This document shows positions 3,700 to 40,984 of a stretch of 41,168 bases of DNA, one piece after another; within the stretch, counting starts at the first letter, position 1; each line of letters starts with the position of its first letter. The DNA is from a virus: IMG/VR virus record IMGVR_UViG_3300047564_002855, positions 1 to 41,168 of that record, one strand, 5' to 3'. Position numbers and translations under genes: made by a program. The notes under the pieces are model-generated. The model searched no databases. It was not told the origin of the DNA and saw only the letters and a program-made list of their open reading frames with translations.

Positions 3700-3720
3700 A
3701 TTTACCCGACGGGAATGAGG
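3700..3720 (+). promoter_or_regulatory. Putative phage RNA polymerase promoter A
   Basis: TTTACCCGACGGGAATGAGG (3701-3720, with A at 3700) recurs exactly at 40964-40984 and in diverged form at 8002 and 17927. It aligns ungapped with the SP6 promoter: ATTTA at -17 to -13, GAC at -9 to -7, A at -3, and the initiating G at 3717. It starts two bases after the stop of the sigma-like gene. Transcripts would begin GAGGAAACCUC, a 4-bp hairpin at the extreme 5' end. Confidence 0.75.
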
Positions 3721-3735
3721 AAACCTCTAGTAGTA

Positions 3736-3795
3736 CTATAGGTAGCCATACAGTAGAGATCTACATAGATGTCATCTAGGTATGGCTACCTATAG
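3736..3795 (+). promoter_or_regulatory. Structured leader: 16-bp inverted repeat enclosing two small hairpins
   Basis: CTATAGGTAGCCATAC (3736-3751) is perfectly complementary to GTATGGCTACCTATAG (3780-3795). The 28 bases between hold two more inverted repeats, GTAGA-GA-TCTAC (3753-3764) and TAGATG-T-CATCTA (3766-3778). Transcribed from promoter A, this would fold as a three-way junction ending 20 bases before the next start codon. RNase III processing signals in T7 early mRNA are a known parallel, but which enzyme, if any, acts here is inference. It could also form a DNA cruciform. Confidence 0.7.
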
Positions 3796-3815
3796 GCTAG
3801 CATAAGGACTCCCCT

Positions 3816-3983
3816 ATGGATCGCTACAACAACCCCTACGCTGACCTCATCTCAAAAATCGACATGATTCATGACAGGACTGAGTGTGTCGATGACAGGC
3901 AGGTCCTGGTACAGGCCATCAACGCATTGGAGCGTCTGGCCAAGCGTGTTCAGCAACTCGAACTGGAGAACAAAGTTGGTTGA
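3816..3983 (+). CDS. Small hypothetical protein (55 aa)
   Basis: This is the first gene behind promoter A and its structured leader. The ATG at 3816 is preceded by AAGGA at 3803-3807. The protein starts MDRYNNPYADLISKID and ends in a leucine-rich amphipathic helix (VQAINALERLAKRVQQLELE) that could form a short coiled coil. The stop overlaps the start of the next gene by eight bases. I do not recognise the family. Its position resembles the small host-takeover genes of other T7-like phages, but nothing in the residues identifies a target. Confidence 0.65.
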   Translation: MDRYNNPYADLISKIDMIHDRTECVDDRQVLVQAINALERLAKRVQQLELENKVG

Positions 3984-4470
3984 CATCATTCTGCTGCAAG
4001 TCTCGCCCTGCAACGATCGCACCGTCATGGTGGACGTCGTCGTGCGTTCCGACGATCCCATCCGCCTTCAGGCAGTCGACATGGCGTTCGGATGGAATCC
4101 CAAGGATCTCCGTCTGGTGGGTGTCACCACCGACAACGCCACCGTTCCCAACCTGATCGTCGACATTCCCCAGATCCCGTGGGACTTCTACGGGATCAAC
4201 GAGCAGGATCCTCCCGCCGATGGCGACGGCTACTTCATGTGGCTGTCCCCGCTGTGCGGTTGCGCAACCATGATCGACACCGATGTCCTCGGCACCCTTG
4301 TGTTCGAGCGCATCTCCGACCGCATCTCTGATGTCTACGTCATCCCCACGGCTGGTCCCCTCTACCCGCTCGACACCACCGTCTACGCCTCGGAGATCCC
4401 CGGTCTGAACATGACCGGAAACTTCTTCGGCTGCACCGTCGGCAACTGCCTCGACTTCATCACCAAGTAA
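3976..4470 (+). CDS. Cohesin-like beta-sandwich protein, TTG start
   Basis: I place the start at TTG 3976 because GGAGA lies at 3964-3968 with good spacing and the start overlaps the upstream stop; the next in-frame ATG (4027) has no Shine-Dalgarno sequence. This gives 164 residues. The pattern MVDVVVRSDDPIRLQAVDMAFGWNPKDLRLVGV followed later by a small-to-GTLVFERISD strand resembles cohesin or related Ig-like domains (strand, 'internal' strand with a D at the turn, then PxxL). The rest is rich in aromatic residues, prolines and cysteines (CGCATM, CTVGNC). No signal peptide is seen. In cellulosomes cohesins bind dockerins; here a protein-protein docking role is only inference. It could equally be an unrelated beta-sandwich. 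Confidence 0.6.
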   Translation: MVDIILLQVSPCNDRTVMVDVVVRSDDPIRLQAVDMAFGWNPKDLRLVGVTTDNATVPNLIVDIPQIPWDFYGINEQDPPADGDGYFMWLSPLCGCATMIDTDVLGTLVFERISDRISDVYVIPTAGPLYPLDTTVYASEIPGLNMTGNFFGCTVGNCLDFITK

Positions 4471-4479
4471 GGAGAAACC

Positions 4480-4845
4480 ATGGACTTCATGCTCATCACC
4501 GGATTCGGTCTCTTCGCCGCTGGCATCGTCTGGAACGTCTACTCGCTGTACATGCTCGAGAAGCGGGTCGACAGGATCATGCAGAACATCGAGGACCTCG
4601 ATCAGGACATCACCGACAACGTCTGCGCCTTGGACTACCACATCGGCAACAACCGACAGGCGATCGAAGACCTGACTCGGGTCAGCGGTCGCCACACGAT
4701 CGAGTTGAACAAGCTGAACGACGTGGCAGAGGCTGCCCGTCTGAAGAAGCAGAACGACTACCTGCAGGAGTTCGTCGATTCCGGTAAGGTGTACAAGCAG
4801 CAGATCGCTGACAACAAGAAGGCCATCAAGGATCTCATGCCATGA
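4480..4845 (+). CDS. Membrane protein with one N-terminal helix and a long coiled coil
   Basis: The start has a strong ribosome site (AAGGAGAAACC before ATG). Residues 4-26 (MLITGFGLFAAGIVWNVYSLYML) form one hydrophobic helix, followed by about 90 residues of charged, heptad-like helix (EKRVDRIMQNIEDLDQDIT and further repeats). The N-terminus is not positively charged, so topology is uncertain. The build resembles i-spanins and other phage membrane-anchored coiled-coil proteins, but its place in the early/middle region before the RNA polymerase argues against a lysis role. Superinfection exclusion or membrane association of a host factor are possible. The stop overlaps the next start (ATGA at 4842). 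Confidence 0.75.
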   Translation: MDFMLITGFGLFAAGIVWNVYSLYMLEKRVDRIMQNIEDLDQDITDNVCALDYHIGNNRQAIEDLTRVSGRHTIELNKLNDVAEAARLKKQNDYLQEFVDSGKVYKQQIADNKKAIKDLMP

Positions 4846-5012
4846 GTAATGACATCGTGTCGCGGCTGCGCAAGGAAATATCCAAGCGTGATCGACCGTA
4901 CCCAGTCGAGTTGCTTCCTGAACTAAAGGAAGCCGCCGACGAGATCGAACGGCTGCGTAAACGCGTAGCCATCTTGGAAGAACTGCATCTCAGGAGCAGC
5001 ACCAATGAGTGA
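4842..5012 (+). CDS. Small hypothetical protein (56 aa), coiled-coil
   Basis: The ATG at 4842 overlaps the previous stop (ATGA) and the stop at 5010-5012 overlaps the next start, so it is fully embedded in the operon. The protein begins MSNDIVSRLRKEISKR and its second half (LKEAADEIERLRKRVAILEEL) is a leucine-zipper-like helix. Short proteins of this build, a basic start followed by ADEIERLR, are common in phages and have no assigned function. Homo-oligomerisation through the helix is likely. Confidence 0.65.
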   Translation: MSNDIVSRLRKEISKRDRPYPVELLPELKEAADEIERLRKRVAILEELHLRSSTNE

Positions 5013-5256
5013 CACCACACGCGATATCGTCTTCCGCCACCACTTCAAGCGACTCGAGCCCCTGCTGGACGGCAAGGTCGTCAGTATCGTCATCGACGAT
5101 TCCGCTGACAGCACGGCCCCCTTCGTTGGTCTCCACATCAAGTGTCCCAACGGGGACACCTACGAGATCGTCGCCATGCGCGACGAGGAGGGCAACGGGG
5201 CTGGCGACCTGATGATTGGAAAGATCCTCACCAATGGCAAGACCCCCGTGGGATGA
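5005..5256 (+). CDS. Hypothetical protein (83 aa)
   Basis: The ATG at 5005 is preceded by CAGGAGCAGC, a good ribosome site. The protein reads as a small single domain of alternating strands (KVVSIVIDDSADST, then FVGLHIKCPNGDTYEIVAMRDEEG). It has no membrane segment or recognisable catalytic motif. It overlaps the previous gene by eight bases and the endonuclease gene by 23. I do not recognise the family. Confidence 0.7.
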   Translation: MSDTTRDIVFRHHFKRLEPLLDGKVVSIVIDDSADSTAPFVGLHIKCPNGDTYEIVAMRDEEGNGAGDLMIGKILTNGKTPVG

Positions 5257-5632
5257 ACGTCGTCTAGCCGTCTGGCGCAACCAAGGGATCCGGGGCATGA
5301 CCCGTGGCCTGTTCTTCCGCATGTGGGACGAACAGGATGGAAAGTGCAGTATCTGCCAAGAGATACTGTACACCGGCTCCAGTGGTCGTTCGGGCTACAC
5401 GCTCGACCACGACCACGACACTGGCAAGCCCCGGTCCCTGCTGTGTCAGGGCTGCAACAAGCACGGTGCCCTCAAGGAGGGTGCCGACATCGAGAGGTTC
5501 AAGGGTACTCCGTACTACGACTATGTGCATCGGCACAGAAAGAAGGTCGAGGATGTGGGACAACCTGACGGAACAGGAACAGATCAGATGGGTGGTGGAG
5601 AACGACGAGAGGGAGGTCAAGGCTGTTGCTGA
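5234..5632 (+). CDS. Recombination endonuclease VII-like HNH nuclease
   Basis: The protein has 132 residues from ATG 5234. It has the endonuclease VII signature: a zinc pair CSIC (C38, C41), the catalytic DHDHDTG block (58-64), R67, and the second zinc pair CQGC followed by N75. T4 endonuclease VII resolves branched DNA and trims replication intermediates before packaging. In T7 this place before packaging is filled by endonuclease I (gp3), an unrelated fold, so this is a functional replacement. The last 80 bases overlap the RNA polymerase start in another frame, and the C-terminal 26 or so residues (Gly-rich, ending GQGCC) are probably a by-product of that overlap. Confidence 0.85.
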   Translation: MARPPWDERRLAVWRNQGIRGMTRGLFFRMWDEQDGKCSICQEILYTGSSGRSGYTLDHDHDTGKPRSLLCQGCNKHGALKEGADIERFKGTPYYDYVHRHRKKVEDVGQPDGTGTDQMGGGERREGGQGCC

Positions 5633-8003
5633 TGGCGTTGCGCGAATGCAACGATCCATGGAACACGCCGACCTCTCCAAACCAGAGCGCATGGTCATCG
5701 TGCAGCGCTACGAGACCCTGGCCAAGGCCATCAAGGCCGATCAGGAAGCGTTGCTGGGTGGCATGGCGATGCGAGGTCGACCGCAGACATGGGGTCCTGC
5801 CTACCTGACGATCGACGCCGAGAAACTAGCCGTAATCACCCTTGGTGTCGCGGCTTCCTCCATCGGCATCGGTGCAGCGGAGTCGATGAAGCTGGTGAAT
5901 ACGGCTGCTCGCATTGCAGAGGACGTGAAGAGACAGCACGAACTCGAGGAGGTGCTGCGCATCAACAGGGAGCGCAGCAAGGACGACAAGGGCTTCAGCC
6001 GCAACTTCGCCAAGCGTCTCAGCGGGGACACCGAGAAGGTGAAGAAGCTGTACAAGAAGATGAACGACGGCTCCCTGAAGTGGTCCATCACGGAGCGCAT
6101 CGGTCTTGGTAGTAGACTGCTGAAGATTCTTGCCGACTGCAACATCGGCTGGGACATCACCCTCACCCGTGATGGCAAGAAGCAGGTCTACTACATCCAG
6201 CCCAACGAGGACCTGTACAACGAGGTGCTGAGGAACACGGACAACTGCCTTGAGATGGCCAACCCATACTTCAAGCCGATGACGTGTCCTCCTGTTCCTT
6301 GGAGCCACGATAAAGACACCATCATCGGCGGCTACAGGATCATCAAGGCGAATGGCGTCAAGTACAGGGGCAACGCTGCCAGTCACCGTCTCGACCTTAG
6401 ATCGCATCCCATGGCCGAGGCTCTGGCCGGCATCAACGCCATCCAGAGCGTCGAGTGGGAGATCGACACGGACACGCTGTCGATGGTCAAGCGGATCTTC
6501 AATGCCAACAACCCCGAGTGGAGCCACCTGATTCCGGTGGCGCAGACAGACCGTCCCAAACTCGATCCCATCGAGAAGGGGGCAAGCAAGGCAGAGATCA
6601 AGATCTGGAGACAGAAGAAGGAAGCGGCCATGGCTGCACTGAAGGAGGCGGCATCCCGTCGTCTCTCCGTTGCGTTTGCCGTCGCAACCGCCGAATCGTT
6701 GGTCGGCAAGCCTGTCTTCTTCGTCCACGAATTCGACTGGCGTGGTCGCATCTACCCCGTGTCAGCAGGACTGTCTCCCCAAGGCACGGACGTCGAGAAG
6801 GCAATGCTGAGGTATGCGGAGCGATTCCCTCTTGGGAAGAACGGCCTGAATCGTCTGAAGATCTGGGCCGCTGGGTGTGCAGGTGTCGACAAGGTGTCGT
6901 TTGAGGATCGCATAAAGTGGTGGGACACGACATGGGGCGACAGCCCTGATCCCGACAACGACATGAGGTGGACCGAGTATGACGATCCGTTCCTGTTCGC
7001 ACAGGCGGCGCGTGAGATCAGGAGGGCGATCGCGTCGGGCTCTCCTGCCACGTACATGAGCAATGTCTCATGCTGCGTCGACGGATCTCAGAACGGTCTG
7101 CAACACCTGTCAGCCATGGGACGCGATGAGATAGGCGGCGAGGCCGTCAACCTCATCGACGGGGTGGTGCCGCGTGACCTGTACGCGGCGGTCGGCAATC
7201 TCGTTCACGTCGCGGTGGAGGGCGACGCACAGGAGATGCTGAACAGCGGTAACGTGACCGACGAACTCGGTCAGCCGCTGCCGCCCCTTGTCTGGAGCGA
7301 GCAGCTGGAGAACGCCAAGGCGCGGCGAAAGACGGTCAAGCGATCCGTCCTAGCCTACCCTTACGGCGTCACCAAGTCAGGCATGTGCAATGGCCTGATG
7401 GAGGATGGGTTCACGGATGGTCTGCCGGGCTCCAAGCACAGGAACGCTTGGTACCTTGCGGAGAAGATCGACCTTGCCGTCCGAGACGTGGTGGTCTCGG
7501 CTGCAAGGCTGATGGATTGGTTCAGGTCTGTTGCCGAGGCGTTGGGCAACCGAGGCATCCCGCTGTACTGGGAGACCCCCGTTGGTTTCCCGTGCTGCAT
7601 GCGGTACGCAGTCAAGTACGAGAAGCGCATCGAGGTCAACGGATTCAAGTTCAGCGTCCTAGAGGACACGGACGAGATCCACACCGCTGCCCAGATCAGG
7701 GGAGTGGTCGCCAACATCGTCCACTCCTTTGATGCCTCGCATGCAGTCAGGACGTGCCTACGTCTGGTGGCTCAGAACTACAAGTCGTTCCACTTCGTGC
7801 ATGATTCCTTCGGGTGCCATGCAGGACGTGTCGACTATCTGAACGCCGCCCTCAGGCAGGAGTTCGTCAGGATCCACTCCGATGACCTCATCGGATGGTT
7901 CAAGGCATACGCTGAGAGCCATCAAGTCGAAGTGGCTCCTGTCCCATCCCTTGGCAAGCTGGATCTCGAGCAGGTCAAGACCTCGAGCTTCTTCTTTGCC
8001 TAA
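5553..8003 (+). CDS. Single-subunit DNA-directed RNA polymerase (T7 gp1 family)
   Basis: I start it at ATG 5553, with AAGG-rich sequence just before; this gives 816 residues against 883 in T7. The T7 polymerase motifs are all present: FDWRGRIYPVSAG (about 394), CCVDGSQNGLQHLSAMGRDE with the first catalytic Asp (about 510), the KRSVLAYPYG O-helix lysine motif (about 600), HDSFG with the second catalytic Asp (about 750), and a C-terminus ending SSFFFA, like the FAFA foot of T7. The promoter-specificity loop lies roughly at residues 677-725 and is several residues shorter than in T7, consistent with a different promoter. Four copies of a candidate cognate promoter occur in the window. Together these make it the transcription engine for middle and late genes. 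Confidence 0.97.
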   Translation: MWDNLTEQEQIRWVVENDEREVKAVADGVARMQRSMEHADLSKPERMVIVQRYETLAKAIKADQEALLGGMAMRGRPQTWGPAYLTIDAEKLAVITLGVAASSIGIGAAESMKLVNTAARIAEDVKRQHELEEVLRINRERSKDDKGFSRNFAKRLSGDTEKVKKLYKKMNDGSLKWSITERIGLGSRLLKILADCNIGWDITLTRDGKKQVYYIQPNEDLYNEVLRNTDNCLEMANPYFKPMTCPPVPWSHDKDTIIGGYRIIKANGVKYRGNAASHRLDLRSHPMAEALAGINAIQSVEWEIDTDTLSMVKRIFNANNPEWSHLIPVAQTDRPKLDPIEKGASKAEIKIWRQKKEAAMAALKEAASRRLSVAFAVATAESLVGKPVFFVHEFDWRGRIYPVSAGLSPQGTDVEKAMLRYAERFPLGKNGLNRLKIWAAGCAGVDKVSFEDRIKWWDTTWGDSPDPDNDMRWTEYDDPFLFAQAAREIRRAIASGSPATYMSNVSCCVDGSQNGLQHLSAMGRDEIGGEAVNLIDGVVPRDLYAAVGNLVHVAVEGDAQEMLNSGNVTDELGQPLPPLVWSEQLENAKARRKTVKRSVLAYPYGVTKSGMCNGLMEDGFTDGLPGSKHRNAWYLAEKIDLAVRDVVVSAARLMDWFRSVAEALGNRGIPLYWETPVGFPCCMRYAVKYEKRIEVNGFKFSVLEDTDEIHTAAQIRGVVANIVHSFDASHAVRTCLRLVAQNYKSFHFVHDSFGCHAGRVDYLNAALRQEFVRIHSDDLIGWFKAYAESHQVEVAPVPSLGKLDLEQVKTSSFFFA

Positions 8004-8022
8004 TTACCCGCCGTAAATGAGG
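8002..8022 (+). promoter_or_regulatory. Putative phage RNA polymerase promoter B
   Basis: AATTACCCGCCG followed by TAAATGAGG matches promoter A at 16 of 21 positions, with the conserved ACCC, CG and TGAGG blocks kept. It begins inside the TAA stop of the RNA polymerase gene. The predicted initiating G is 8019, so the GAGGAA of the first transcribed bases would also be the ribosome-binding site of the exonuclease gene, nine bases from its ATG. It lacks the hairpin seen at the other three sites. Confidence 0.65.
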
Positions 8023-8027
8023 AACAC

Positions 8028-8813
8028 ATGAACATCGCACTGATAGACTCGGACATCATTGCATACCGATCGGCTGTCCTATGCGAAGAGGCGGACGAAG
8101 CCGACGCGATCGACCTGTGCGACAGGATGCATGAGGTGTGGCTCGATGCCGCACACTGCGACCTGCCCGTCAGGTGCCTCACGGTCGGCAAGTCGTTCAG
8201 GTCCGTCGCTTGGCCTGACTACAAGGCCAACAGGGCGTCGAAGCCCAAGCCCCGCCATCTACAGGCGGTGCGTCAGCACATCATCGACTGCGGCAGCATG
8301 ATGCATCCCGGCTGGGAAGCCGACGACATCATGGGATTCATCCACACAGGCAAGCCGCTGGCCTGTGATTTCAACACGGTCATTGTCACGGTGGACAAGG
8401 ACCTTGATCAGGTGCCAGGATGGCATTGCAACCCCGACAAGGAGACCATGTACGAGGTCTCCGTCGAGGACTCCGAACTGTACCGATGGATGCAGGTGTT
8501 GTCGGGCGATACCACCGACAACTACGCCGGCATTCCAGGTGTCGGAGAGAAGAAGGCCATGAAGCTTCTCGCGGACGTTCCTATCTGCGATCTCGAGAAG
8601 ACCGTCAGGGCCGTGTATGCCGAGAAGGAATTGGACGACAACTATCTGTCGGCCATGATGACCTGTTCATTCATTGTTCAGTACACCGAGGAGGTTGAAT
8701 GCGCGCTGTTGTCTCAGGATTCGAGCGAGGAGTCCACTCTGGTATCTTTCCTGCGGTCACTCAGGCCGCCGCATTTCTCACGCGGAGCGGCTGGGATGTC
8801 ATCAACCCAGTGA
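8028..8813 (+). CDS. 5'-3' exonuclease (T7 gp6 / flap-nuclease family)
   Basis: The protein has 261 residues (T7 gp6 has 300). It opens MNIALIDSDIIAYRS with the first metal-binding aspartates (D7, D9), has WPDYKANRASKPKP (the substrate-binding arch), GWEADDIMG (further acidic ligands), TVDKDLDQVPG and GDTTDNYAGIPGVGEKKA, the helix-hairpin-helix of the family. In T7 this enzyme degrades host DNA and removes RNA primers. It sits directly behind the RNA polymerase and promoter B, whereas in T7 it follows the DNA polymerase. The final 115 bases overlap the next gene in another frame, and the last 36 or so residues (Ser/Arg-rich) are likely unconserved. Confidence 0.9.
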   Translation: MNIALIDSDIIAYRSAVLCEEADEADAIDLCDRMHEVWLDAAHCDLPVRCLTVGKSFRSVAWPDYKANRASKPKPRHLQAVRQHIIDCGSMMHPGWEADDIMGFIHTGKPLACDFNTVIVTVDKDLDQVPGWHCNPDKETMYEVSVEDSELYRWMQVLSGDTTDNYAGIPGVGEKKAMKLLADVPICDLEKTVRAVYAEKELDDNYLSAMMTCSFIVQYTEEVECALLSQDSSEESTLVSFLRSLRPPHFSRGAAGMSSTQ

Positions 8814-9702: not shown

Positions 9703-9857
9703 AGACCCCTAAGGACTGGGAGATCATGATCACGGCCATCACCAAGTCGGTCATCGAGAGTGGTGCGCCGAAGGAAGAGTGGGAGGACCGCATCCGACAC
9801 GGTCTTCGCATCGTGATGACGCTGACCAACGCAGCCATGGCAAAGGAGTCCAAGTGA
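9699..9857 (+). CDS. Small hypothetical protein (52 aa)
   Basis: The ATG at 9699 overlaps the phosphoesterase stop (ATGA) and the stop overlaps the next GTG start, so it is part of the operon. The sequence MKTPKDWEIMITAITKSVIESGAPKEEWEDRIRHGLRIV and onward looks like two amphipathic helices. No motif or family is recognised. Confidence 0.6.
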   Translation: MKTPKDWEIMITAITKSVIESGAPKEEWEDRIRHGLRIVMTLTNAAMAKESK

Positions 9858-13192: not shown

Positions 13193-13201
13193 ACAACCAG
13201 A

Positions 13202-13223
13202 CAAGGAGTAAGCGCTACCCATG
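13202..13223 (+). repeat. 22-base repeat copy 1, ribosome site and start of the methyltransferase gene
   Basis: CAAGGAGTAAGCGCTACCC followed by ATG. It matches 13808-13829 at 21 of 22 bases (G13214 against A13820). It carries the Shine-Dalgarno sequence and the start codon of the methyltransferase-like gene. Confidence 0.85.
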
Positions 13224-16126: not shown

Positions 16127-16758
16127 TGATCGTAATCGGATTTGCAGGACTTGCCCGTGGCGGCAAGACGACGGCAGCCAAGTTCATGTACGACTGGTGC
16201 CTTGCCCACGACATGAACCCCCTTCTCTACTCGTTCGCACAGCCCATGAAGAGGGCCGCACGACGAATCGGTCTGGACAAGAACAAGGAACCTGAGAAGT
16301 ACAGGAAGACCCTGCAGCGGTGGGGAGAGACCCGTCGTGATCCGGAGTTCAGGCCAGGCATCAGCGGTCCTGACTACTGGATCAACCGCGTACTGCTTGA
16401 GTTGGCTCAGATCCAGATCACGGAACAAGACAAGTACGGCAGAATGGACAAGTTCGGCATGAACTCGGAGTTCAGGGAGACCGTTGTCATCTTCGACGAC
16501 CTCCGTTACATGAACGAACTCGAGATGGTGAACGTCCTGAACGGCACCACGATATTCGTCGACGGTGCCAGCCGCATCAAGGATCTCGACGCCAAGTGGC
16601 GTCAGCATGAATCCGAGAAGTTGGCCATGCTGTACACTTTCGGAGCAATCCCAGACATCTTCGACTTCTACGTCAAGAACGAGCGCACAGAGGAAGAATT
16701 CAAGGAACTAGTCGAACTCCTCGCCCCGGCTTGGATCGACGTGGAGACACTCACATGA
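16126..16758 (+). CDS. Deoxynucleoside monophosphate kinase-like P-loop protein
   Basis: The protein has 210 residues from ATG 16126 (TGATG overlap with thyX). MIVIGFAGLARGGKTTAAKFM carries the P-loop GLARGGKTT (8-16). YSFAQPMKRAARRIGLDKNK resembles the lid and NMP-binding segment of phage dNMP kinases of the T4 gp1 type, and VVIFDDLRYMNELE holds a Walker B-like strand and the conserved DxRY-type motif. It should phosphorylate one or more dNMPs, acting downstream of ThyX. Exact base specificity cannot be read. The next gene starts within its stop (ATGA). Confidence 0.85.
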   Translation: MIVIGFAGLARGGKTTAAKFMYDWCLAHDMNPLLYSFAQPMKRAARRIGLDKNKEPEKYRKTLQRWGETRRDPEFRPGISGPDYWINRVLLELAQIQITEQDKYGRMDKFGMNSEFRETVVIFDDLRYMNELEMVNVLNGTTIFVDGASRIKDLDAKWRQHESEKLAMLYTFGAIPDIFDFYVKNERTEEEFKELVELLAPAWIDVETLT

Positions 16759-17927
16759 GTCGATTTGACCGCATCGAACAGATCGAGATCGAGAAGATCG
16801 CCAAGAAGGTGGCCGGAGGAGGAGGTGGCGGTTCAGGTACCGTCACCCAAGTGAACTCCGGCACGGGACTAACAGGTGGTCCTATCACCACCACGGGAAC
16901 ACTTAGTGTTAGTTTCGGTACATCCGGTACGACGGCTTGCGTGGGCAACGATTCACGGCTCACCAATGATAGGAACCCAACGGCTCACGCCGCTTCCCAT
17001 GCGGTTGCTGGTTCCGATCCTATCACCTTGGCTCAGTCTCAGGTAACTAACCTTACCACTGACCTTGCTAACAAGAGCAATGTGGGACATACCCATCCAC
17101 AGTCCGATGTAACTAACCTAACAACGGACTTGGCGGCCAAGGCTCCTAACACTCCGTCGTACCTAACACTTGCCACGGATGCAGGACTGACCAACGAACG
17201 GGTGGCCACAGCTGGTAACCACATCTCGCTGGTGGATGCGGGAGCTGGTTCGACGCTTACGATGGACTGGGACTACAATCCCGGTCGTCTGGCTATCATC
17301 GAATCCGAGTTCAATGCAACCGGAAACATGCTGGCTCAGGGATCAGGCACGGGTGCCTCGGTGGCCTACACCACGACTGGAATTGAAACCGCCGACCACA
17401 TCGGTATCGGTCGAATCACGACTGGTACCACGGCAACCGGGCGATACGCACTCGGTAGTGCCAACGCCACCTGCGTGGTGCTCGGAACCTATCGGGTCCT
17501 GTTCACGTCGTGGGTCCGCATTCAGGCCGTCTCGGATGGAACCAACACCTTCATCCTCCAGTCGGGTCTGTTCGACAGCCTGACGGGAGCCCCTACAGAC
17601 AGTCTGGTCTTCCAGTACACCCACAGCGTGTTCGGTGGCAACTGGGAATGCTCGGTCTACAACGCGGGTGGAAGCATCACCAGCGTCGATTCCGGAGTGG
17701 CCTGTGCCGTCAACACGTGGTACCGTCTGGACATCGACGTCAACGCAGCTGCCAACTCGACCCTGTTCAAGATCAACGGAACAACCGTCTACACCCACAC
17801 AGGAACGACCCCCACGGGTACCGCCCGTGCCATGGGCTTCTACACCAACATCAGAAAGACCCTCGGAACAACCGCCCGTACTGCCGAAGTGGACTACATG
17901 GGGTACAGGACTTGGTTGACCCGGTGA
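16755..17927 (+). CDS. Fibre-like / receptor-binding-like protein with Gly-rich linker and lectin-like C-terminus
   Basis: I start it at ATG 16755 (ATGA overlap), giving 390 residues. A short charged helix is followed by a Gly stretch (AGGGGGGSGTVTQVNSGTGL), a fibre-type GLTGGPITTTGTLSVS motif, and a repeat VTNLTTDLANKSNVGHTH / VTNLTTDLAAKAP seen in phage tail fibres. From about residue 185 the sequence is beta-rich with alternating hydrophobics, like a concanavalin-type sandwich (FTSWVRIQAVSD, then FVFQYTH-like and WYRLDIDVNAA strands). The bases of the repeat segment are visibly less GC-rich than the flanks. It lies at the end of the nucleotide-metabolism operon and not in the tail block, directly before promoter C. 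A second adhesin or a virion decoration protein is likely. Confidence 0.75.
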   Translation: MSRFDRIEQIEIEKIAKKVAGGGGGGSGTVTQVNSGTGLTGGPITTTGTLSVSFGTSGTTACVGNDSRLTNDRNPTAHAASHAVAGSDPITLAQSQVTNLTTDLANKSNVGHTHPQSDVTNLTTDLAAKAPNTPSYLTLATDAGLTNERVATAGNHISLVDAGAGSTLTMDWDYNPGRLAIIESEFNATGNMLAQGSGTGASVAYTTTGIETADHIGIGRITTGTTATGRYALGSANATCVVLGTYRVLFTSWVRIQAVSDGTNTFILQSGLFDSLTGAPTDSLVFQYTHSVFGGNWECSVYNAGGSITSVDSGVACAVNTWYRLDIDVNAAANSTLFKINGTTVYTHTGTTPTGTARAMGFYTNIRKTLGTTARTAEVDYMGYRTWLTR

Positions 17928-23541: not shown

Positions 23542-23567
23542 CTGTCCCTTCGGGGAATTCGCTCCCG

Positions 23568-23599
23568 GCCCCTTACGCCGAAAGGCGTGAGGGGCTTTT
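23568..23599 (+). terminator. Strong intrinsic terminator
   Basis: GCCCCTTACGCC (23568-23579), GAAA loop, GGCGTGAGGGGC (23584-23595), then TTTT: a 12-bp stem with one wobble. It separates the head genes from the tail genes. A smaller TCCC-TTCG-GGGA hairpin lies just before it at 23545-23556. Confidence 0.85.
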
Positions 23600-32500: not shown

Positions 32501-35500
32501 GGCCGTCCGGCCATGATCCGTCGCAGTCACGAACTGCAGGGTGCCAACCCTCCCGTGACCGACATCGTCGAGATCTCCCGCCTCCGTGCCGGTATCGCTT
32601 CGGCGGTAAGGAACGGAGAGCCGGAGATTGCCGAGGAGATGAACCGTCTCCTGTACAACAAGTACGGTGACGCCACCCGTCTTCCGCGTTGGCGTGAACT
32701 CGAGGACTTCTTCACCCGTCGCGAGAACGACATCATCGACGGAAACCCCACCGAGGAACTGATGGCCGTGTCCGTAGAAGGACGCAACATCAAGTTCTCC
32801 GTCATGGAGCGTCCTGTTGGTGATGTCGTGACAAGGGAGGGACTGGATGTCGCAGCCTCCCGGCTGCCCACCAAGCCTGACATGCCGTCAGGCAAGGGCA
32901 TCACTGTCCCGACCGAGTCCACGAAGAAGGCTGCAAAGGAGATGCGCGACCAGCAGATGCTGGAGCATGCCGTGACCACCGATGCAGGTGCCATCGCGGA
33001 GCGCAGCCGTCTAGAGAATGCCCGTACCATCAGGTACGAGACGTCGAATGTGCTCGAGTCCACGCCGGACACCCCAACGGGGACTACGGCCACAGGCTCG
33101 AAGCCTCAGCCCAAGAAGGAAGGCAAGCCCACCGCCGAGGAGGAGAAGGCAGCCAAGGAACAGAAGATCCTTGACTCGCTGAGTCCTGCTCAGAACCCAG
33201 GTGAGCGTCTGGTCATCACCAACGACATCCTCATGAGGATGGGACAGGTTCCCATTCTCAGGGGTCTTGGTCGTGCGCTGTTCAAGTTGCAGACCGCAGG
33301 TACCGGTTTTGGTTCCATCCACGGCTCCAGTCGTGCCTTGGACATGCTTGTCACCGCGTTCAACATGCTTGACCGTCCCGAGGCTCTTGTCAAGTCCCTC
33401 GGATTCAACAACGGCTCCAGCCGCACTCTCCAGAATTTCAGAGATCAGGGACGCATCGCCGTCAACGAACTGGCTGTAATCGAGCAGCGCGCACGTCGTG
33501 CTGGTCAGTACACCGGTGCCGTCGACGAGGACAGGTTGCTTCAGGATGCCCTCGACAACGGGGATCCATCCGCCCTCAACCCAGGCATGCGGGAGATGTA
33601 CGATGTCATGCGTCGTCACTACGACGAATCAGGACGTCGTCTCGCCGTCACCGCAGGTGAGGGTACCCTCCGTCCTAACTACCGTCCCCGAGAAGGTAAT
33701 ACGCCACACATCATGGCTAGGATGCAGGAGGCCAAGAACTCGTTCCGTGATGCCTATGCAGATCGGATCATGAACTCCGGCCAGCCTATCCCTGATGCTT
33801 TGGCAGACCGCATCGGTGTTCCACGTGGAACAGCCTACAATGTCCTTAGCTCGGCCGATCAGGCCGCATTCAGGGACGCCGTAACCGAGTACGCCAACGA
33901 CATGGCGGGTCAGACGATCTCTCGTCTAACCCACGGTGTCACCGAGGCTGGTGTCGGCTACCGCCGCGCCACCACCGGTGCAGACTCACGGGCCGCCCGT
34001 ACCCTCGAGGACGAGGTGTACCGCGACCCACGTGTCCGTCAGTGGTACGTCCAGTCTCCGCTGCAGGAGCACAAGGTCTACATGGAGATCCGTTCTCCGC
34101 AGATCCTGTTCGATGCCCAGTTGTCCGAGGCGCTTGGAATGAGCGCCACGTTCGACGATGTCATCGGAGCCCTGCGCCTTCATGTCAGTCGTATTCCCGA
34201 TCCCAACTTCAAGGCTGAGTTCGGGACCGCCATCGACCGGCTCGAGCGCAAGTGGAACTACCACACCGGACGTGCCCAGTACGTCCACAACGAGTTCCTC
34301 GACCCCGCCTTCCGAGCCAGCACCGGAGTTGTCCGTGGCTCGTTCGGATCGTTCTGGGGTCTTTCTGGAATGGTCACAGAGATTCCCCGTGCACTGGTGG
34401 CAGCCAAGATGTACGGAGGATCCATGCAGGGAATCTTCGACATGCTCCATGCCATCCGTCGATCGGGTGACCTGAGCGCAGTCGAGGACATCGCCCATGC
34501 AACTGACCAGTACGTCACGCATGCCCACTCGTCCTTCGGATCCAGCGTCGGTACCTCGTTCACCGAGAGACTGATCGCTCCATGGGAGCGGGTGTGGCAC
34601 ACGATGCGTGGAGAGGAAGTCCTGACCAACGGTGGAGTGGGTATGTCCCGCTTCTCCAGCACCGTCGTCGCAGCCGCGGAAGCCTATGGCGAAACCGGAA
34701 TGCGTCTTGGCGGAATGCAGTACTTCTCAGGAATCGCCCGTGTCATCGCAGACCGTCAGGCCAAGAGGTTCATCAGCAGGAACATCGACAACATGGAACG
34801 TCTCGCGACCGCCCTTCAGGGCATCGGAGCCGTTGCCGAGAACACCCCGGCATCCCGTGCCGCGTTCAAGAACGCAGCCCGTGAGGCAGGTATTCCCTAT
34901 GACGTCGCCCTCCAGATGAACCATGCCGGACTCCTGACCCCTGACACCGTACGCGCCCTGCGCAACGGTCTCGCAGGACAGGACGAGGTGTGGAACCTCG
35001 GTATGCTCCGTGGTCGCGTGGACGACCGCACCATGGGTGCGGCTATGGACTTCCTCACGGCAGCCCATAACTTCCATGTGCCCACCTCCAGCCTCGCGTC
35101 ATCCGTCGAGGCCGGCAACGTGTTCGGAAAGCTGTTCTACAACCTCACCAACTACAGCCGTGCGTTCGCGCTGAACGTGGCCTTCAGGACCGCCGCCAAC
35201 GGCCGTCTTGCGACCATGCTCGGTACGTTTGCCGCGGTCATGATCGGTGAGAACCTGTACCAGACCTCGCGAGAAGTCGCCACAGGAAAGACCAGCGTGG
35301 AGAAGTTGGAGGAGGAGTGGAACGATGATCCGACCTCGTTCTTCCTCAAGCGTGCCGTCAAGTCCCCGTGGCTTGGCGCACACAATGGAATGGCCCACTC
35401 CGCTGTGGAGGCATTCACCGGTGGATCCTCGGCGGCCGCCATGCGCGGCAACAACGTCCTTGGGCCCATCATCCAGAGCGGCAACCAACTTCAGAAGCTG

Positions 35501-35608: not shown

Positions 35609-35614
35609 TAGAAC

Positions 35615-37030
35615 ATGGCATACTCTTACGTTGAGTATGTCGGTACCGTCGGCGGCACCACCGGCCCGTTCTCATACGGGTCGGTGGCGCTGCTGGACGC
35701 CGACACGGAGTCCATCTCCACCCAGCTCAAGGTCTACAAGAACGGGACCTTGCTGACAATCACGACAGACTACACGATCGACACGATCAACGAAGAGGTC
35801 GACACCGTCGCCAATGTCTACGACACCGATGTCATCCGGATTGCCCGTGAAACGAAGGGCGACGCCAGATACGTCGACTACGTCGATTCGACGAACGTCA
35901 CTTCTGAACTGCTCGATCTCGACAGCAACCAGCTGTTCTTCCTTGTTCAAGAGGCAGCCGACCTCCAGTCCGATGCCATGACCCGTGGTACGGATGGTCA
36001 GTGGAACGGTCGTGGATACCGCGTAGGCAACCTCGCCTCGGGTGTCTATGGCACCGATGCCGTCACCGTCAACCAGTTGAACGCCGCCGTCTCGGGAGCC
36101 CTTCCGGCCACCCTGAGCGGAATTGGTACGCTGGTCTACAGCGGAGACGGAGCAACCACCGACTTCCCGCTTCCCAGCGCCATCTCGGCAATCACCGATC
36201 CCGACGATGTCGAGGTCTACATCAACGGTCTCCGTCAGCGTCCGACCACCCACTACACGTTGGTGTCGGCCGCTGTGCGCATCACTCCCGCCCCCTCGGC
36301 GGCAGACCGCATCATGCTGGCGTACCCCGAGGGAGCCGTCTCGGCTGTCCTGACGACCAACTCCGTCACGACCAACAGCATCCAGTCGAATGCCGTCACC
36401 GTCGCCAAGATCAACCCCGGCACCAACGGACAGGTCCTCACGACCACCGCAGGTGCCGCCGCTTGGACGACTCCGACCGCCTCGCTGATCACGGACTTTG
36501 ATACTCAGGTCAGGACCAACCGTCTCGATCAGATGACGGCTCCTACCGCAACCGTCTCCCTGAACAGCCAGCGCATCTCGGATCTCGCCACTCCGACCAC
36601 CGGTACGGATGCCGCGACCAAGACATATGTCGACAACATCCGCGATCTCACGGCAATGACCGCGAAACCGACCGTAACTGGTTCAGTCACGACCGGCAAC
36701 TTCTCGGCTACCTGTGGCTTCACCGCCGGTCATTTCACGGTTCTGGTTCCCATCGTCCACAGCGGAGCCTCGCATTATGCGACCGTCTCCGGTGTGATCA
36801 CGTCGACTCTCACCACCAATACCGGCAACCCGATCCGTGTATTTGTCCCTGACACCGACGCTGGAGGTGGAGCTTACTTCACACTCGAGTTCACCCGCAC
36901 CATCATTGGTAGCGGATCCTCGGTTGCGTTCACCTTCACGCGTGTCGCCCAGAACTCCATCGGAGCCGGCAACATCGAGGTCGATACCAGCCGAACTGCA
37001 CATGTGTTCCTTGCACGGGGGTCTAGCTGA
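35615..37030 (+). CDS. Tail fibre protein with T7 gp17-type N-terminus
   Basis: The protein has 471 residues. Residues 1-150 match the virion-attachment domain of T7 gp17 in layout: YVEYVGTVGGTTGPFSYGSVALLDAD, LTITTDYTIDTINEEVD, VIRIARETKGDARYVDY, then LLDLDSNQLFFLVQEAADL and WNGRGYRVGNLASGVYGTDAV. The middle is beta-rich with Thr/Val repeats and a second attachment-like SDLATPTTGTDAATKTYVDN motif. The C-terminus (from about 340) is a beta-domain that probably touches the receptor. GAGGAGTAAT precedes the ATG. Confidence 0.9.
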   Translation: MAYSYVEYVGTVGGTTGPFSYGSVALLDADTESISTQLKVYKNGTLLTITTDYTIDTINEEVDTVANVYDTDVIRIARETKGDARYVDYVDSTNVTSELLDLDSNQLFFLVQEAADLQSDAMTRGTDGQWNGRGYRVGNLASGVYGTDAVTVNQLNAAVSGALPATLSGIGTLVYSGDGATTDFPLPSAISAITDPDDVEVYINGLRQRPTTHYTLVSAAVRITPAPSAADRIMLAYPEGAVSAVLTTNSVTTNSIQSNAVTVAKINPGTNGQVLTTTAGAAAWTTPTASLITDFDTQVRTNRLDQMTAPTATVSLNSQRISDLATPTTGTDAATKTYVDNIRDLTAMTAKPTVTGSVTTGNFSATCGFTAGHFTVLVPIVHSGASHYATVSGVITSTLTTNTGNPIRVFVPDTDAGGGAYFTLEFTRTIIGSGSSVAFTFTRVAQNSIGAGNIEVDTSRTAHVFLARGSS

Positions 37031-37476
37031 TGGCTACTGAACAGATTCAAACCAACCAGATCTCCGGCTACTCGGGTGGCGGACAGATGGAGACACAGAT
37101 CATCTCCTTGGCTGGAGGAGCCGCCGACAAGACGACGTCCGCCTTTGGTTTCGTCGTCGGTCCTGTCCTGATTGAAGTAACCGCAGGAAGTGACGACGCC
37201 ACCGATGTCTATGCGACTCTGTGGGTCAACATGCGGTCGTTCAGCGGAACCAAGACTGGTAACGTCACTAACCGAAAGGCCCGTGGAGTTACGGGTGGAT
37301 CGACATGCCACTGCTATGTCGACCGTACCACCTCAGGTACGGTTCTAGTTGTCTCCCAGATTGATCAGGGAGCCGACTTTGAAGCCGACGGCACCAGCAT
37401 CGCTTCGGTCAACCTCAAGAACTGGCCAGCCTCAGGCCGCCTCCGCATCACCGCGTGGGAGGATACTCAGTCATGA
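37030..37476 (+). CDS. Hypothetical structural protein after the tail fibre (148 aa)
   Basis: ATG 37030 overlaps the fibre stop (TGATG). It is beta-rich with many Thr, Gly, Ser and Ala residues (GGQMETQIISLAGGAADKTTSAFGF) and no helix or membrane segment. Its coupling to the fibre suggests a fibre chaperone or accessory fibre subunit. No family is recognised. Confidence 0.75.
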   Translation: MATEQIQTNQISGYSGGGQMETQIISLAGGAADKTTSAFGFVVGPVLIEVTAGSDDATDVYATLWVNMRSFSGTKTGNVTNRKARGVTGGSTCHCYVDRTTSGTVLVVSQIDQGADFEADGTSIASVNLKNWPASGRLRITAWEDTQS

Positions 37477-37742
37477 GCATGACGCTTGAGGATCTGATCA
37501 AGCTTGTCGCCATGATCGGAATCCCTGCCTTGGGTTCGGTTGCCTGGCTGATAACCATGTTGATGACCATCAGAGCCGACTTGAAGAAGATAGAGGTTCA
37601 ACTCGAGATGCGCAACAACCTCTACGAGGATCGCATCTCACGCCTCGAGCGACATGTCCACGACATTCGTAACTCCCTACAGGCACTGACCTTAGGTCTT
37701 GCAAGAAAGGGGCTTGACGATGAGCCAGAACAAGGACGATAA
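37473..37742 (+). CDS. Membrane-anchored coiled-coil protein, holin or i-spanin candidate
   Basis: I use ATG 37473 (ATGA overlap), giving 89 residues. Residues 6-29 (EDLIKLVAMIGIPALGSVAWLITM) form one transmembrane helix; a charged helical part follows (RADLKKIEVQLEMRNN, EDRISRLERHVHDIRNSLQAL). Its place between tail fibre and TerS is that of T7 gene 17.5, the class II holin, which also has one membrane helix. The coiled coil would also fit an i-spanin. No nested Rz1-like lipoprotein frame is seen. The last 23 bases overlap TerS. Confidence 0.7.
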   Translation: MSMTLEDLIKLVAMIGIPALGSVAWLITMLMTIRADLKKIEVQLEMRNNLYEDRISRLERHVHDIRNSLQALTLGLARKGLDDEPEQGR

Positions 37743-37932
37743 GTCAGACCAGATGTGGCATCTCACCGCCGATGCCATCATTGACGCCATGAAGGATCCA
37801 GACCGGGTGTCTCCCGGCTGGGCTCAGGCCGCTCTCCGTTTCCTCAAGGACAACGGGGTTCAGGCTCTTGACCTTCCCAACGGCAAGATCGAGAAGATGC
37901 GGGAAATCCTTCCTTTCAAGAAAGTCTCCTAA
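37720..37932 (+). CDS. Terminase small subunit, T7 gp18-like
   Basis: The protein has 70 residues from ATG 37720 (T7 gp18 has 89). The run MWHLTADAIIDAMKDPDRVSPGWAQAALRFLKDNGVQALD, taken in pieces, carries the DPDRVSPGxxQxAxRFLKDN pattern of T7-like small terminases. It should bind concatemeric DNA and bring it to the large terminase. AAAGGGGCTTGACG precedes the start. Confidence 0.85.
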   Translation: MSQNKDDKSDQMWHLTADAIIDAMKDPDRVSPGWAQAALRFLKDNGVQALDLPNGKIEKMREILPFKKVS

Positions 37933-38232
37933 ATGAAGAACCTTACACTCTACAGCGGAACCCTTAGCGCTGGTGCCAGCACAGGATCGGAAGTCAACAT
38001 CTCCGTCAGTCCCCACCCGGCCAGCGTCATGCTTCCGGTTGAGATCGACTGCTCGTCCACGGTTCCCGTTGTCACGATCCAAGGCAAGCTGACGTCCGCG
38101 GCCGGTTGGTCGGACCTGTCCTCCACCGTCTCCGGAACCCTCCAGCTCGTTCCTCGCTGCAACTACTACCGCGTCAGCATCGCTTCCGCCGCCGGTGGTG
38201 AAACCCTCAAGGTCACTCTGGGGGTCATGTGA
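37933..38232 (+). CDS. Small beta-rich protein between the terminase genes (99 aa)
   Basis: It starts on the base after the TerS stop. The protein (MKNLTLYSGTLSAGASTG, then HPASVMLPVEIDCSSTVPVVTIQGKLTSAAGW) is all beta with no charged helices and resembles small phage structural domains. Its stop overlaps the next GTG (GTGA). The family is not recognised; a virion decoration role is likely from composition. Confidence 0.7.
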   Translation: MKNLTLYSGTLSAGASTGSEVNISVSPHPASVMLPVEIDCSSTVPVVTIQGKLTSAAGWSDLSSTVSGTLQLVPRCNYYRVSIASAAGGETLKVTLGVM

Positions 38233-39104
38233 GCTGCATCGCCGCCATACAATACGCACTGTTCAAGGACCCCAATCACAATGTGTTTGGCTACACGGAT
38301 GCGGCCAAGTGTACGGCGGCGATTCGCCTTCCGGACAACGGCAAGTATTCGTGGGTCGACAAGGGCTGGTGGGCCGAATCATGGTCTAACTGGTCGCCCG
38401 GCAGTCCATCTGCTGACGTCTCCCCAGGTGGAGAGATTGCGTACAACGCAACCGGACGTGTCCAGCTGTATGGAAGCACCACCGCAGAGAACGCACGATC
38501 CGCCCTCAGGGACAACGGAAACCACCTGTTTCCGTTTTCCAACATTTCCTCGAGACAGTCGCAGAACTACGGCATCCTTGTCGAGGCGCGTGTGCGTCTT
38601 CCAGACGCGACTCCAACCGGATTTGTGTTCGTTGGAATGCTGAGAGCCCACGCAACGGATTCCACGATTTCTGGAATGGAGCGAATGCTTGGATTCGTGA
38701 ACACGGCCCAAGCGTCCAACTGGCGCGCTGTATCCATGCGCAACTTCAATCCGGCGGATGGAATCACCCCGTCAGACTTCAGGAAGGACACATCCATTGG
38801 AATCACTGGAAGTGTCTTCTGCAACATGGTCCTAGAGGTCTCCGGTGCAGGAAAGTCGGCTAGGTGGCGAGCCTCGTCCGGAGTCTGGACCAACAACAAG
38901 ATTCCGGTAATCACGACCGCGACCGATGCCGACCTTCCAAGTCGTCGTGGCGAGGGCGTCATGGACTTCGGTGTCCAGATTCGCGAGTGGGAGGATGATG
39001 CCATTCCCCCTGCCGTGCCTATGACCGCCACGTTCTCTCGTCTGAACATCTGGGCATGGCGTCCCGGCTTCGTAGCCACCCGCCCTGTCTACAGGTACAA
39101 CTAA
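38229..39104 (+). CDS. Beta-sandwich structural or receptor-binding protein, GTG start
   Basis: GTG 38229 overlaps the upstream stop; the protein has 291 residues. It is beta-rich with many Trp residues (WVDKGWWAESWSNW) and the strand pattern of a concanavalin-like sandwich (GILVEARVRLPDATPTGFVFVGML, MDFGVQIREWEDDAIPP, SRLNIWAWRPG). Such domains bind sugars in phage fibres. It sits between the terminase genes where T7 has lysis genes, so it may be an extra adhesin. Its base composition is slightly less GC-rich than TerL. Confidence 0.75.
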   Translation: MSCIAAIQYALFKDPNHNVFGYTDAAKCTAAIRLPDNGKYSWVDKGWWAESWSNWSPGSPSADVSPGGEIAYNATGRVQLYGSTTAENARSALRDNGNHLFPFSNISSRQSQNYGILVEARVRLPDATPTGFVFVGMLRAHATDSTISGMERMLGFVNTAQASNWRAVSMRNFNPADGITPSDFRKDTSIGITGSVFCNMVLEVSGAGKSARWRASSGVWTNNKIPVITTATDADLPSRRGEGVMDFGVQIREWEDDAIPPAVPMTATFSRLNIWAWRPGFVATRPVYRYN

Positions 39105-39110
39105 CCGATG

Positions 39111-39138
39111 CTGGGGGTCGAAAGGCCCCCAGATCGTT
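39111..39138 (+). terminator. GAAA-capped terminator-like hairpin
   Basis: CTGGGGGTC-GAAA-GGCCCCCAG is a 9-bp stem with one wobble, followed by ATCGTTT. It lies six bases after the stop of the preceding gene and is the first of three stem-loops ahead of TerL. Confidence 0.65.
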
Positions 39139-39154
39139 TCTAAGGCCCCTAGAA

Positions 39155-39210
39155 GCCTCGCTGAGGCATTCTGTGACTTTGGGGGTATCTCCGGAGGGGT
39201 AGACCCTCCG
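39155..39210 (+). promoter_or_regulatory. Two more stem-loops before the TerL gene
   Basis: GCCTC-GCT-GAGGC (39155-39167) and CGGAGGG-GTAGA-CCCTCCG (39192-39210) are perfect 5-bp and 7-bp stems. Neither has a T-run. The 141-base gap 39105-39245 otherwise holds no gene and no copy of the promoter motif, so TerL is probably expressed by read-through, reduced by these structures. Confidence 0.5.
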
Positions 39211-39245
39211 ACGTCTCTAATAGCCTTATAGGCGGTTTCTGAATC

Positions 39246-40964
39246 ATGACCGATAATGAATACACCCTGATGCTGAAGTCCGACTTCCGGAACTTTGCCT
39301 TCAGGGCATGGCAGGTTCTGGGTCTACCGGCCCCGTCCGAGATCCAGTACGACGTGTGCGACTACCTGCAGAACGGTCCCAACCGCAGGATGATCCAGGC
39401 CATGCGTGGCTTCGGCAAGTCCTACCTGACGGCGACCTACACGGCTTGGCGACTGTACTGCAATCCCGACACGACCATCCTGTGCGTGTCGGCTGTTCAG
39501 ACCCGAGCCCGGGAGTTCATCCTTCTGGTCAGGCGCCTGATCGACAGCATGGAGGAACTCCACCACCTGAGGCCCGGGGAGTGGGATCGGGACGGTGCAG
39601 ACAGGTTCGACGTCGGCTGCAGGACCACCCCCAGCAAGAACCCCTCGGTGGCCGCCTACGGCATCAAGAGCATGATCACGGGTACCCACGTGGACGTCAT
39701 CATCAACGACGACGTGGAGATCCCGGACAACAGCCGCACCGTGGAGGCACGGGATGGACTGATGCAGCGCCTCAGGGAGTTCGAGAACATCCTGAACCCC
39801 GGCGGGGACATCGTCTATCTGGGTACACCCCAGACAGAGGACTCGGTGTACAACCGTCTTGCCCAGCACTACAGCTGCCGACGATGGCCGGCACGGTACC
39901 CAGACCCGACCGACAGCGCCCGAATGGTGAACATTGCCCCGTGGCTTCTCGAGAACCTGACGGAGGAGAAGGCCAAGCCGGGGGATCCGACCTACCCATC
40001 CTATTATCCGGACGACCTCCTGATTGAGCGAGAGGCCATCATGGGCCCCTCGATGTTCGCCCTGCAGATGCTGTTGGACACGACACTCAGCGATGCCGAC
40101 CGGTATCCGCTCAGGTGCTCGAATCTGATCGTCTGGGACATGGCCACCAACATGGCCCCTATGAACGTCATCTGGGGTACGACCTCCCCTGCCAACATCG
40201 AGTGTGGTGGCATGGCTGGAGACAAGTGGTACAATGCCGTCCATACCGACAACAGGTGGGCAGAGTACGAGAACACGATCATGTACATCGACCCGGCAGG
40301 TCGAGGCGAGGATCAGACAGGCTACTGTGTCGCCCGTCTACTGAACGGCATGGTGCATGTTCCCGAGTGTGACGGCCTGACAGGTGGTCACAGTGACGAC
40401 ACTCTGGTCAGGTTGGCTGAGATAGCCCACAGGTATGGGGTCAAGACCGTAGTGATCGAGAGCAACTGGGGTGATGGCATGTATGGCCGTCTCCTGCAGC
40501 CGCACCTCGCACGGGTGGCCGGTACGGTCGCCGTGGAGGAGAAGAGGTCCAAGGGACAGAAGGAACTGAGGATCATCGACACCCTCGAGCCGATCATGGC
40601 CCAGCACAGGCTGTGTGTCTCCCCCCAGGTGGCAAGGAACCCCGTTCTGGTCAACCAGATGACCCGCATCACACGGGACAAGGACTCCCTGAAGCACGAC
40701 GATCAGGTCGAGGCCCTCGCTGGAGCCGTGGCATGGTTCAAGGATCAGATGGCCTTGGACTCCGGCAAGAGGGTGGATGACATGGAGAGGTTGCAGATCG
40801 AGAAGGTAGCCAAGGAGTTCCTCAAGGAATGGAACAACCCCAAGGCATCCCGGTATGTCCTGCCCCTGTCAGGAGGTCTGTTCACCCCCGAGGCAGCCAA
40901 GGAATGGAAGGGTAAGACCCCCGCTGGAAGCCGGTGGGGCGGTCGCAGAATGGGCCGGAGATGA
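39246..40964 (+). CDS. Terminase large subunit, T7 gp19-like
   Basis: The protein has 572 residues (T7 gp19 has 586). ATPase motifs: AMRGFGKSYLTA (P-loop, R54-S59) and VDVIINDDVEIPDN (Walker B). Nuclease motifs: MYIDPAGRGEDQTGYCVA, VIESNWGDGMYG and KHDDQVEALAGA, which hold the metal-binding aspartates. It pumps DNA into the head and cuts concatemers. The ribosome site before ATG 39246 is weak. The TGA stop overlaps promoter D. Confidence 0.96.
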   Translation: MTDNEYTLMLKSDFRNFAFRAWQVLGLPAPSEIQYDVCDYLQNGPNRRMIQAMRGFGKSYLTATYTAWRLYCNPDTTILCVSAVQTRAREFILLVRRLIDSMEELHHLRPGEWDRDGADRFDVGCRTTPSKNPSVAAYGIKSMITGTHVDVIINDDVEIPDNSRTVEARDGLMQRLREFENILNPGGDIVYLGTPQTEDSVYNRLAQHYSCRRWPARYPDPTDSARMVNIAPWLLENLTEEKAKPGDPTYPSYYPDDLLIEREAIMGPSMFALQMLLDTTLSDADRYPLRCSNLIVWDMATNMAPMNVIWGTTSPANIECGGMAGDKWYNAVHTDNRWAEYENTIMYIDPAGRGEDQTGYCVARLLNGMVHVPECDGLTGGHSDDTLVRLAEIAHRYGVKTVVIESNWGDGMYGRLLQPHLARVAGTVAVEEKRSKGQKELRIIDTLEPIMAQHRLCVSPQVARNPVLVNQMTRITRDKDSLKHDDQVEALAGAVAWFKDQMALDSGKRVDDMERLQIEKVAKEFLKEWNNPKASRYVLPLSGGLFTPEAAKEWKGKTPAGSRWGGRRMGRR

Positions 40965-40984
40965 TTTACCCGACGGGAATGAGG
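40964..40984 (+). promoter_or_regulatory. Putative phage RNA polymerase promoter D
   Basis: The motif is identical over 21 bases to promoter A and begins on the last base of the TerL stop. The initiating G would be 40981. Transcripts start GAGGGAAACUC, and with the preceding bases ATGAG-GGAAA-CTCAT forms a hairpin. It points to the right edge, so it transcribes the right end or, in a concatemer or permuted genome, the early block. Confidence 0.75.

Follow-up and report, generated by a model that had tools for sequence, protein, structure and literature searches.

T7-type RNA polymerases and their promoters must change in concert, and it is an old question how all of a genome's promoters come to be replaced. 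Among the described phages, Syn5 has two promoters (PMC3950665), KP34 has three strong promoters and one weak one (PMC6834552), and the Pseudomonas phage LUZ100 has eight promoters of its own type, one of which lies before the RNA polymerase gene for self-amplification (PMC10134795). When T7 RNA polymerase was moved to the T3 promoter, N748D was a recurrent change (PMC4633624).

In the stretch of viral DNA analyzed here (the window; 41,168 bases), four sites are very probably promoters of the phage's own T7-type RNA polymerase and probably make up the complete set. The window is an IMG/VR virus record that may be incomplete, so a further site is possible. The promoter class is already known; as far as a limited literature search goes, the specificity and the series of variants described below are new.

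Four sites at gene borders

A 21-base motif occurs four times in the window, always on the plus strand, with starts at 3700, 8002, 17927, and 40964, exactly where the sequence-only reading of this DNA had placed it. The copies at 3700 and 40964 are both ATTTACCCGACGGGAATGAGG, the copy at 8002 is AATTACCCGCCGTAAATGAGG, and that at 17927 is ATTTACCCACCGAAATTGAGG. With up to 3 mismatches allowed there were 4 matches in the window versus 0 in 100 dinucleotide-preserving shuffles, and no fifth motif-like place was found in the 41,168 bases, the next best being at least 8 of 25 bases off every copy. The preceding genes have their stop codons at 3696-3698, 8001-8003, 17925-17927, and 40962-40964; three of the four copies overlap the stop codon and the remaining one starts 2 bases past it, as had been described (on or within two bases of a stop).

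Promoter P1 (3700..3724, corresponding to -17 to +8; predicted +1, G3717) lies 2 bases after a gene for an ECF-like sigma factor (3231..3698, plus strand), in which region 4 is recognizable and region 2 is weak (Sigma70_r4_2, 8.7e-07; Sigma70_r2, 0.028). P1 stands upstream of the operon containing the RNA polymerase gene. Promoter P2 (8002..8026; predicted +1, G8019) overlaps the stop codon of the polymerase gene, and its 9-base leader, GAGGAACAC, stands immediately before the exonuclease ATG at 8028; this start region appears to serve also as the Shine-Dalgarno sequence, or ribosome-binding site, of the exonuclease gene. Promoter P3 (17927..17951; predicted +1, G17944) overlaps the stop codon of the gene at 16731-17927 and sits ahead of the portal, scaffold, and capsid block, and promoter P4 (40964..40988; predicted +1, G40981) overlaps the stop codon of the terminase large subunit gene. 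All four promoters are on the plus strand.

The sites thus form a repeated, contiguous motif of 20 to 23 bases at gene borders and on the coding strand. Over 22 aligned sites from the window and its relatives, conservation is confined to a single block (-17 to about +8), in which T-16, C-7, G+1, and G+4 are the strongest positions; from +9 to +50 nothing is conserved above background level. The block comprises an AT-rich part from -17 to -13, C-7, an AT-rich part from -4 to -1, and a G start in a purine run, in a register that we infer for the 22 sites and in which -4 is G in two of the window sites. C-7, which is common to T3, K11, and SP6 promoters, and G+1 are mostly kept across lineages, and the core from -12 to -8 is lineage specific. 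The C-7, A-3, and G+1 that had been claimed are present in all four copies, whereas the claimed GA at -9/-8 is found in copies 1 and 4 and reads GC in copy 2 and AC in copy 3. The distance of the core to +1 shifts by 1 to 2 bases between lineages, which is unusual for a rigid recognizer, and the predicted start sites may therefore be off by 1 to 2 bases. A T3 register, with the T before GAGG as +1, was rejected, since it is the other register that brings C-7 and G+1 into line across the lineages.

Comparison with described promoters

The upstream part of the sites resembles T3 promoters. The first nine bases at P1, TATTTACCC, are those of T3 phiOL, TATTTACCCTCACTAAAGGGAAT, letter for letter, and the first nine at P2, TAATTACCC, are in the same way those of T3 phi2.5, TAATTACCCTCACTAAAGGGAAC. 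C-7, the purine-rich start, an acidic residue at T7 position 748 of the polymerase (D in T3, E in the window), a last promoter after terL like phiOR, and stem-loops behind promoters are further likenesses. However, the T3 promoter class, AATTAACCCTCACTAAAGGGAGA, was not found in fixed register: its upstream half matches with a shift of one base against the predicted +1, so that the CCC of the window is one base farther from +1, and its downstream half differs, most bases from -9 to -1 being unlike. In addition, the polymerase is only 27% identical to that of T3, its specificity loop is 6 residues shorter, and the sites of the window number 4, fewer than are annotated in the T3 record.

The sequence-only reading had called the motif SP6-like. 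ATTTA at -17 to -13 and G+1 agree with SP6, as do GAC at -9 to -7 in two of the four window sites and the position of a promoter directly downstream of the RNA polymerase gene. The overall likeness is weak, and T3 is no worse: identity over 26 bases was 0.46 to 0.54 to SP6 and 0.46 to 0.62 to T3, rough values obtained with partly padded reference strings, and by the same rough measure these reach the 99.9th percentile of random 26-mers or exceed it only slightly. SP6 was therefore rejected as the nearest relative. The ATTTAGGTGACACTATAGAAG core recognized by SP6 RNA polymerase is missing from the window sites, which have CCC where SP6 has GGT (-12 to -10) and are also unlike it from -6 to -1; the polymerases are 25% identical, and residue 748 is R in SP6 (and in relatives G008 and G009) versus E in the window. 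That the motif differs from the T7, SP6, and K11 promoters was borne out.

With KP34 and Syn5 the window shares a small number of promoters, one of them at or near the RNA polymerase gene (PMC6834552, PMC3950665), but the promoter sequences are unrelated and the polymerases are 22 to 24% identical to that of the window. The four sites had been contrasted with the 17 of T7; however, a small number of promoters is not new, Syn5 having two (PMC3950665) and KP34 three strong ones (PMC6834552). LUZ100 is likewise a T7-like phage with few promoters of its own type, one of them before the polymerase gene (PMC10134795). It differs from the window in that its promoters were mapped experimentally and it has temperate traits, and its terminase is only 42% identical to that of the window.

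Sites at the same borders in related phages

Scans with the RNA polymerase and terminase of the window yielded about 20 related contigs. Polymerase identity to the window was 53% (G004), 48% (G008), and 45% (G009) for the long relatives and 61% (G017), 55% (G018), and 54% (G019) for others. With the window included, a site was present at the P1 border in 7 of the 7 genomes covering it. The P2 border had a site in 9 of 11 genomes, the pair G004/G021 being without one, and the P3 border in 11 of 11, including two fragments found through the motif alone. At the P4 border the site was clear in 11 of 12 genomes and degenerate in G014. These tallies count some near-identical relatives separately, the number of independent lineages being about seven, and both the +1 anchor and some of the listed sites were picked by eye. 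Exactly four sites each were found in the long genomes of the window, G008, and G009, and three in G004. The fourth site of G009, at 32840, was a scan match first and afterward proved to be located behind a sigma-like gene. Where the P2 site is present in relatives, its leader is 9 to 12 bases. Between terL and the left genes, G004 and G008 are longer than the window by about 4 kb, and a scan of this extra sequence gave no further site.

The motif was thus at the equivalent borders, as had been proposed as a check, but its sequence was specific to the lineage: TATTACCCGACCCATTATGAAGG in G004 and its kin, TAATTACCCGCCCCCTAATAGGAAAC in G017, ATACTGGACTCTAGTGTGAGG or TTAGTGGACACTAGTGTGAGG in G018, G020, and G007, TTTGAGCCGACTATATGAAGGAAC in G008, and AATGTCCACCTCATAGGAGAAG in G009. 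In the distant relative G015 the family motif was not found; the 13-mer repeats considered there as a motif comprised just a tandem repeat at the terminus, a family of palindromes, and pairs attributable to chance.

Site identity was 0.78 within a genome, 0.49 for the same border across genomes, and 0.50 where neither was shared, and none of 10,000 shuffles of the genome labels reached the within-genome value. Because the sites are alike within a genome and not by border, they point to a shared reader acting in trans rather than to local ancestry. The place at the border is inherited while the letters follow the genome. The sites change together with the polymerase lineage, each promoter class being a single group on the polymerase tree, and a joint evolution of polymerase and promoters is thus suggested. 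In two pattern-based scans of a set of 2.9 million viral contigs, 4 and 5 contigs matched, all from this phage group. Two of them were previously unknown fragments that carry the motif at the P3 border; in these, the 3' part of the gene before P3 had no detectable similarity to that of the window.

The RNA polymerase and its specificity loop

The single-subunit RNA polymerase gene (5553..8003, plus strand; 816 amino acids) was identified by Pfam RNA_pol (1.3e-76), RPOL_N, and PHROG 414, and a profile of the protein matched T7 RNA polymerase chains at 4.7e-108. The open reading frame is longer (5304-8003; 899 amino acids), its first 83 codons being another frame of the recombination endonuclease VII gene (5216..5632, plus strand; Pfam Endonuclease_7, 7.6e-13), which overlaps the polymerase start. 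ATG 5553 is the likely start, because the relatives agree on MWxxL there. The genome encodes a T7-family polymerase with its catalytic residues: the equivalents of T7 D537, K631, Y639, and D812 are present, as judged against the database record of T7 RNA polymerase. Identity was about 27% to T7, 25% to SP6, and 24% to KP34. Since the closest polymerases from isolates are less than 28% identical, the phage belongs to a branch of its own among the T7-like phages, one represented here by metagenomes only. A genome scan for hosts returned only polymerases of 23 to 30% identity, and no host was inferred.

The specificity hairpin lies near residues 688-705. The specificity loop (GF to HS) has 43 residues in the TTACCC and TGGAC lineages, the window included, 45 in G008 and G009, 46 in SP6, and 49 in T7, T3, and K11, which agrees with the earlier observation that it is shorter than in T7. 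The residue corresponding to T7 N748 is E in all TTACCC lineages, S in the TGGAC lineage, and R in G008 and G009; among the references it is D in T3, K in K11, and R in SP6. The fit of residue 748 to promoter class is suggestive, and the link between E748 and TTACCC represents one or two changes on the polymerase tree, not many independent ones. A structure model of the polymerase was of low confidence (pLDDT, 61; pTM, 0.52) and found T7 RNA polymerase in the PDB with a probability of 1.00 but an rmsd of about 20 Å; it was used solely for the hairpin shape of the loop.

This is a compact group with four fixed promoter positions, at least five promoter spellings (that of the window; the G004, G017, and G019 forms of TTACCC; TGGAC; that of G008; and that of G009), and polymerases 43 to 66% identical to one another. 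This natural series lends itself to tests of which residues in the loop determine specificity, beginning with position 748, and could supply polymerase-promoter pairs that may be orthogonal, for use in RNA synthesis.

Proposed mechanism and alternative explanations

The mechanism proposed here connects elements that are directly observed, namely the sites, their positions, their covariation with genome lineage, the RNA polymerase, and the terminator; binding, the exact +1, the direction of control, and the order of events would be as follows. Host RNA polymerase would first transcribe the genes at the left end, the sigma-like gene among them, and read through into the phage polymerase gene. 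The new phage polymerase would then fire P1, amplifying its own operon, as well as P2 for the replication genes, P3 for portal, scaffold, and capsid as far as the terminator at 23567, and P4 toward the right end, like phiOR. Recognition may proceed via the AT-rich -17 to -13, the lineage-specific core from -12 to -8, the conserved C-7, and the AT-rich melting part, and transcription may start at the purine-rich GAGGAA, which at P2 would double as a ribosome-binding site.

The sigma-like gene raises the question of whether the sites might instead be host polymerase promoters directed by the phage ECF-like sigma factor, with GGAAC as the -35 element. This gene directly precedes P1 in the window and in several relatives (homologues in G004, G008, G017, and G018; in G009 it was identified by reading), and GAGGAAC or AAGGAAC is found at most sites. 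However, an ECF promoter would have a conserved -10 about 16 bases downstream, and no conserved second element was found at +9 to +50. Furthermore, several P4 sites (GAGGGCGAA, GGAGAAG, and GAGGGGGAC) retain the upstream part but have lost GGAAC, the conserved block starts about 20 bases before GGAAC, in a region that an ECF sigma factor does not require, and C-7 and the AT-rich part at -17 are features of single-subunit polymerases. Thus, it seems very unlikely that the sites are ECF promoters. A combined use, in which the sigma factor and host polymerase use GGAAC first and the phage polymerase uses the upstream part later, is also very doubtful; if it were true, each site would carry the hand-over from early to late transcription.

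An extended Shine-Dalgarno sequence acting only in translation at operon starts would account for GAGGA or AAGGA a few bases before the ATG at P2 in most relatives, but P4 has no gene right behind it, about 150 bases separate P1 from the start of the next gene, no role in translation is known for the conserved part upstream of GAGG, and the motif is found at only four gene starts in the genome, which makes this explanation highly improbable. There is next to no probability that the motif is some other repeat (a mobile element or a packaging or replication signal) lying between genes by chance. Four near-identical copies in one genome, and the adjacency of P4 to a conserved block possibly serving packaging, would fit such a repeat; position and strand, however, are fixed while the sequence follows the genome, three of the four sites overlap stop codons, and no gene content accompanies the sites.

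Other elements of the genome map

The gene order is T7-like, with left genes followed by RNA polymerase, exonuclease, helicase-primase, DNA polymerase, portal, scaffold, capsid, tail genes, and terminase. An intrinsic terminator (23567..23596, plus strand; 13-bp stem, GAAA loop, then a T-run) lies between the capsid gene and tail gene A, the position of Tphi in T3. In 8 of 8 genomes, a 13-bp hairpin with a T-run precedes tail gene A by about 50 nucleotides; its arms have changed yet remain paired. A stem-loop with a perfect 16-bp stem (3736..3795, plus strand) lies near the start of the predicted P1 transcript and is also found behind P1 in several relatives. Together, the terminator and this promoter-proximal hairpin complete a compact T7-style map. 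A strong stem-loop downstream of P4 (41014..41070, plus strand) has 27-nucleotide arms and a z score of -6.5, and the stem-loops after P1 and P4 are placed like the RNase III sites or stem-loops behind T3 promoters. Following P4, a conserved noncoding block starting GAAATCGACTGGGGGTC (41098..41168, plus strand) is present after terL in nearly all relatives reaching this region, as well as in G015, and might, as a guess, be a candidate packaging or genome-end signal.

Genes adjoining P1 and the phage RNA polymerase

The endonuclease VII gene (window positions 5216 to 5632) overlaps the likely start of the phage RNA polymerase gene (position 5553) by 80 bases, and because of this overlap automatic ORF calls add 83 wrong residues to the polymerase. 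A gene for an ECF-like sigma factor (3231 to 3698) is located immediately upstream of P1, the predicted promoter site that precedes the polymerase operon. The phage is T7-like and appears to encode both its own RNA polymerase and a sigma factor. The sigma-like gene was found directly ahead of P1 in most members of the group (the window and the related viral contigs G004, G008, G009, G017, and G018).

Terminator, hairpins, and conserved non-coding sequences

The intrinsic terminator between the capsid gene and tail gene A (23567 to 23596) was kept in all eight genomes (8/8), with compensatory changes in its arms. No promoter site was found from this terminator to P4. A second hairpin, with a GAAA loop and a ATCGTTTCTAAG tail, lies upstream of terL (39111 to 39132); outside the window it was present only in some relatives (G003, G004, and G005).

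In G004 (from 19748), G003, G012, and G013, the P4 transcript is predicted to open, from about +1, with a near-perfect hairpin, GAAGGAGAAC GCA GTTCTCCTTC, in which paired changes were observed between genomes. P4 of the window has merely a 3-bp version.

Downstream of P4 is a conserved non-coding block beginning GAAATCGACTGGGGGTC (41098 to 41168), which contains runs of G and C and is separated from P4 by about 80 to 1300 bases in the window and its relatives. It is a possible candidate for a packaging or genome-end signal. The block was also found in G015, a distant relative. Between terL and the left genes of G015 (L118, 6557 to 8500) there are five copies of an operator-like palindrome, TGTTTCACNGTGAAACA.
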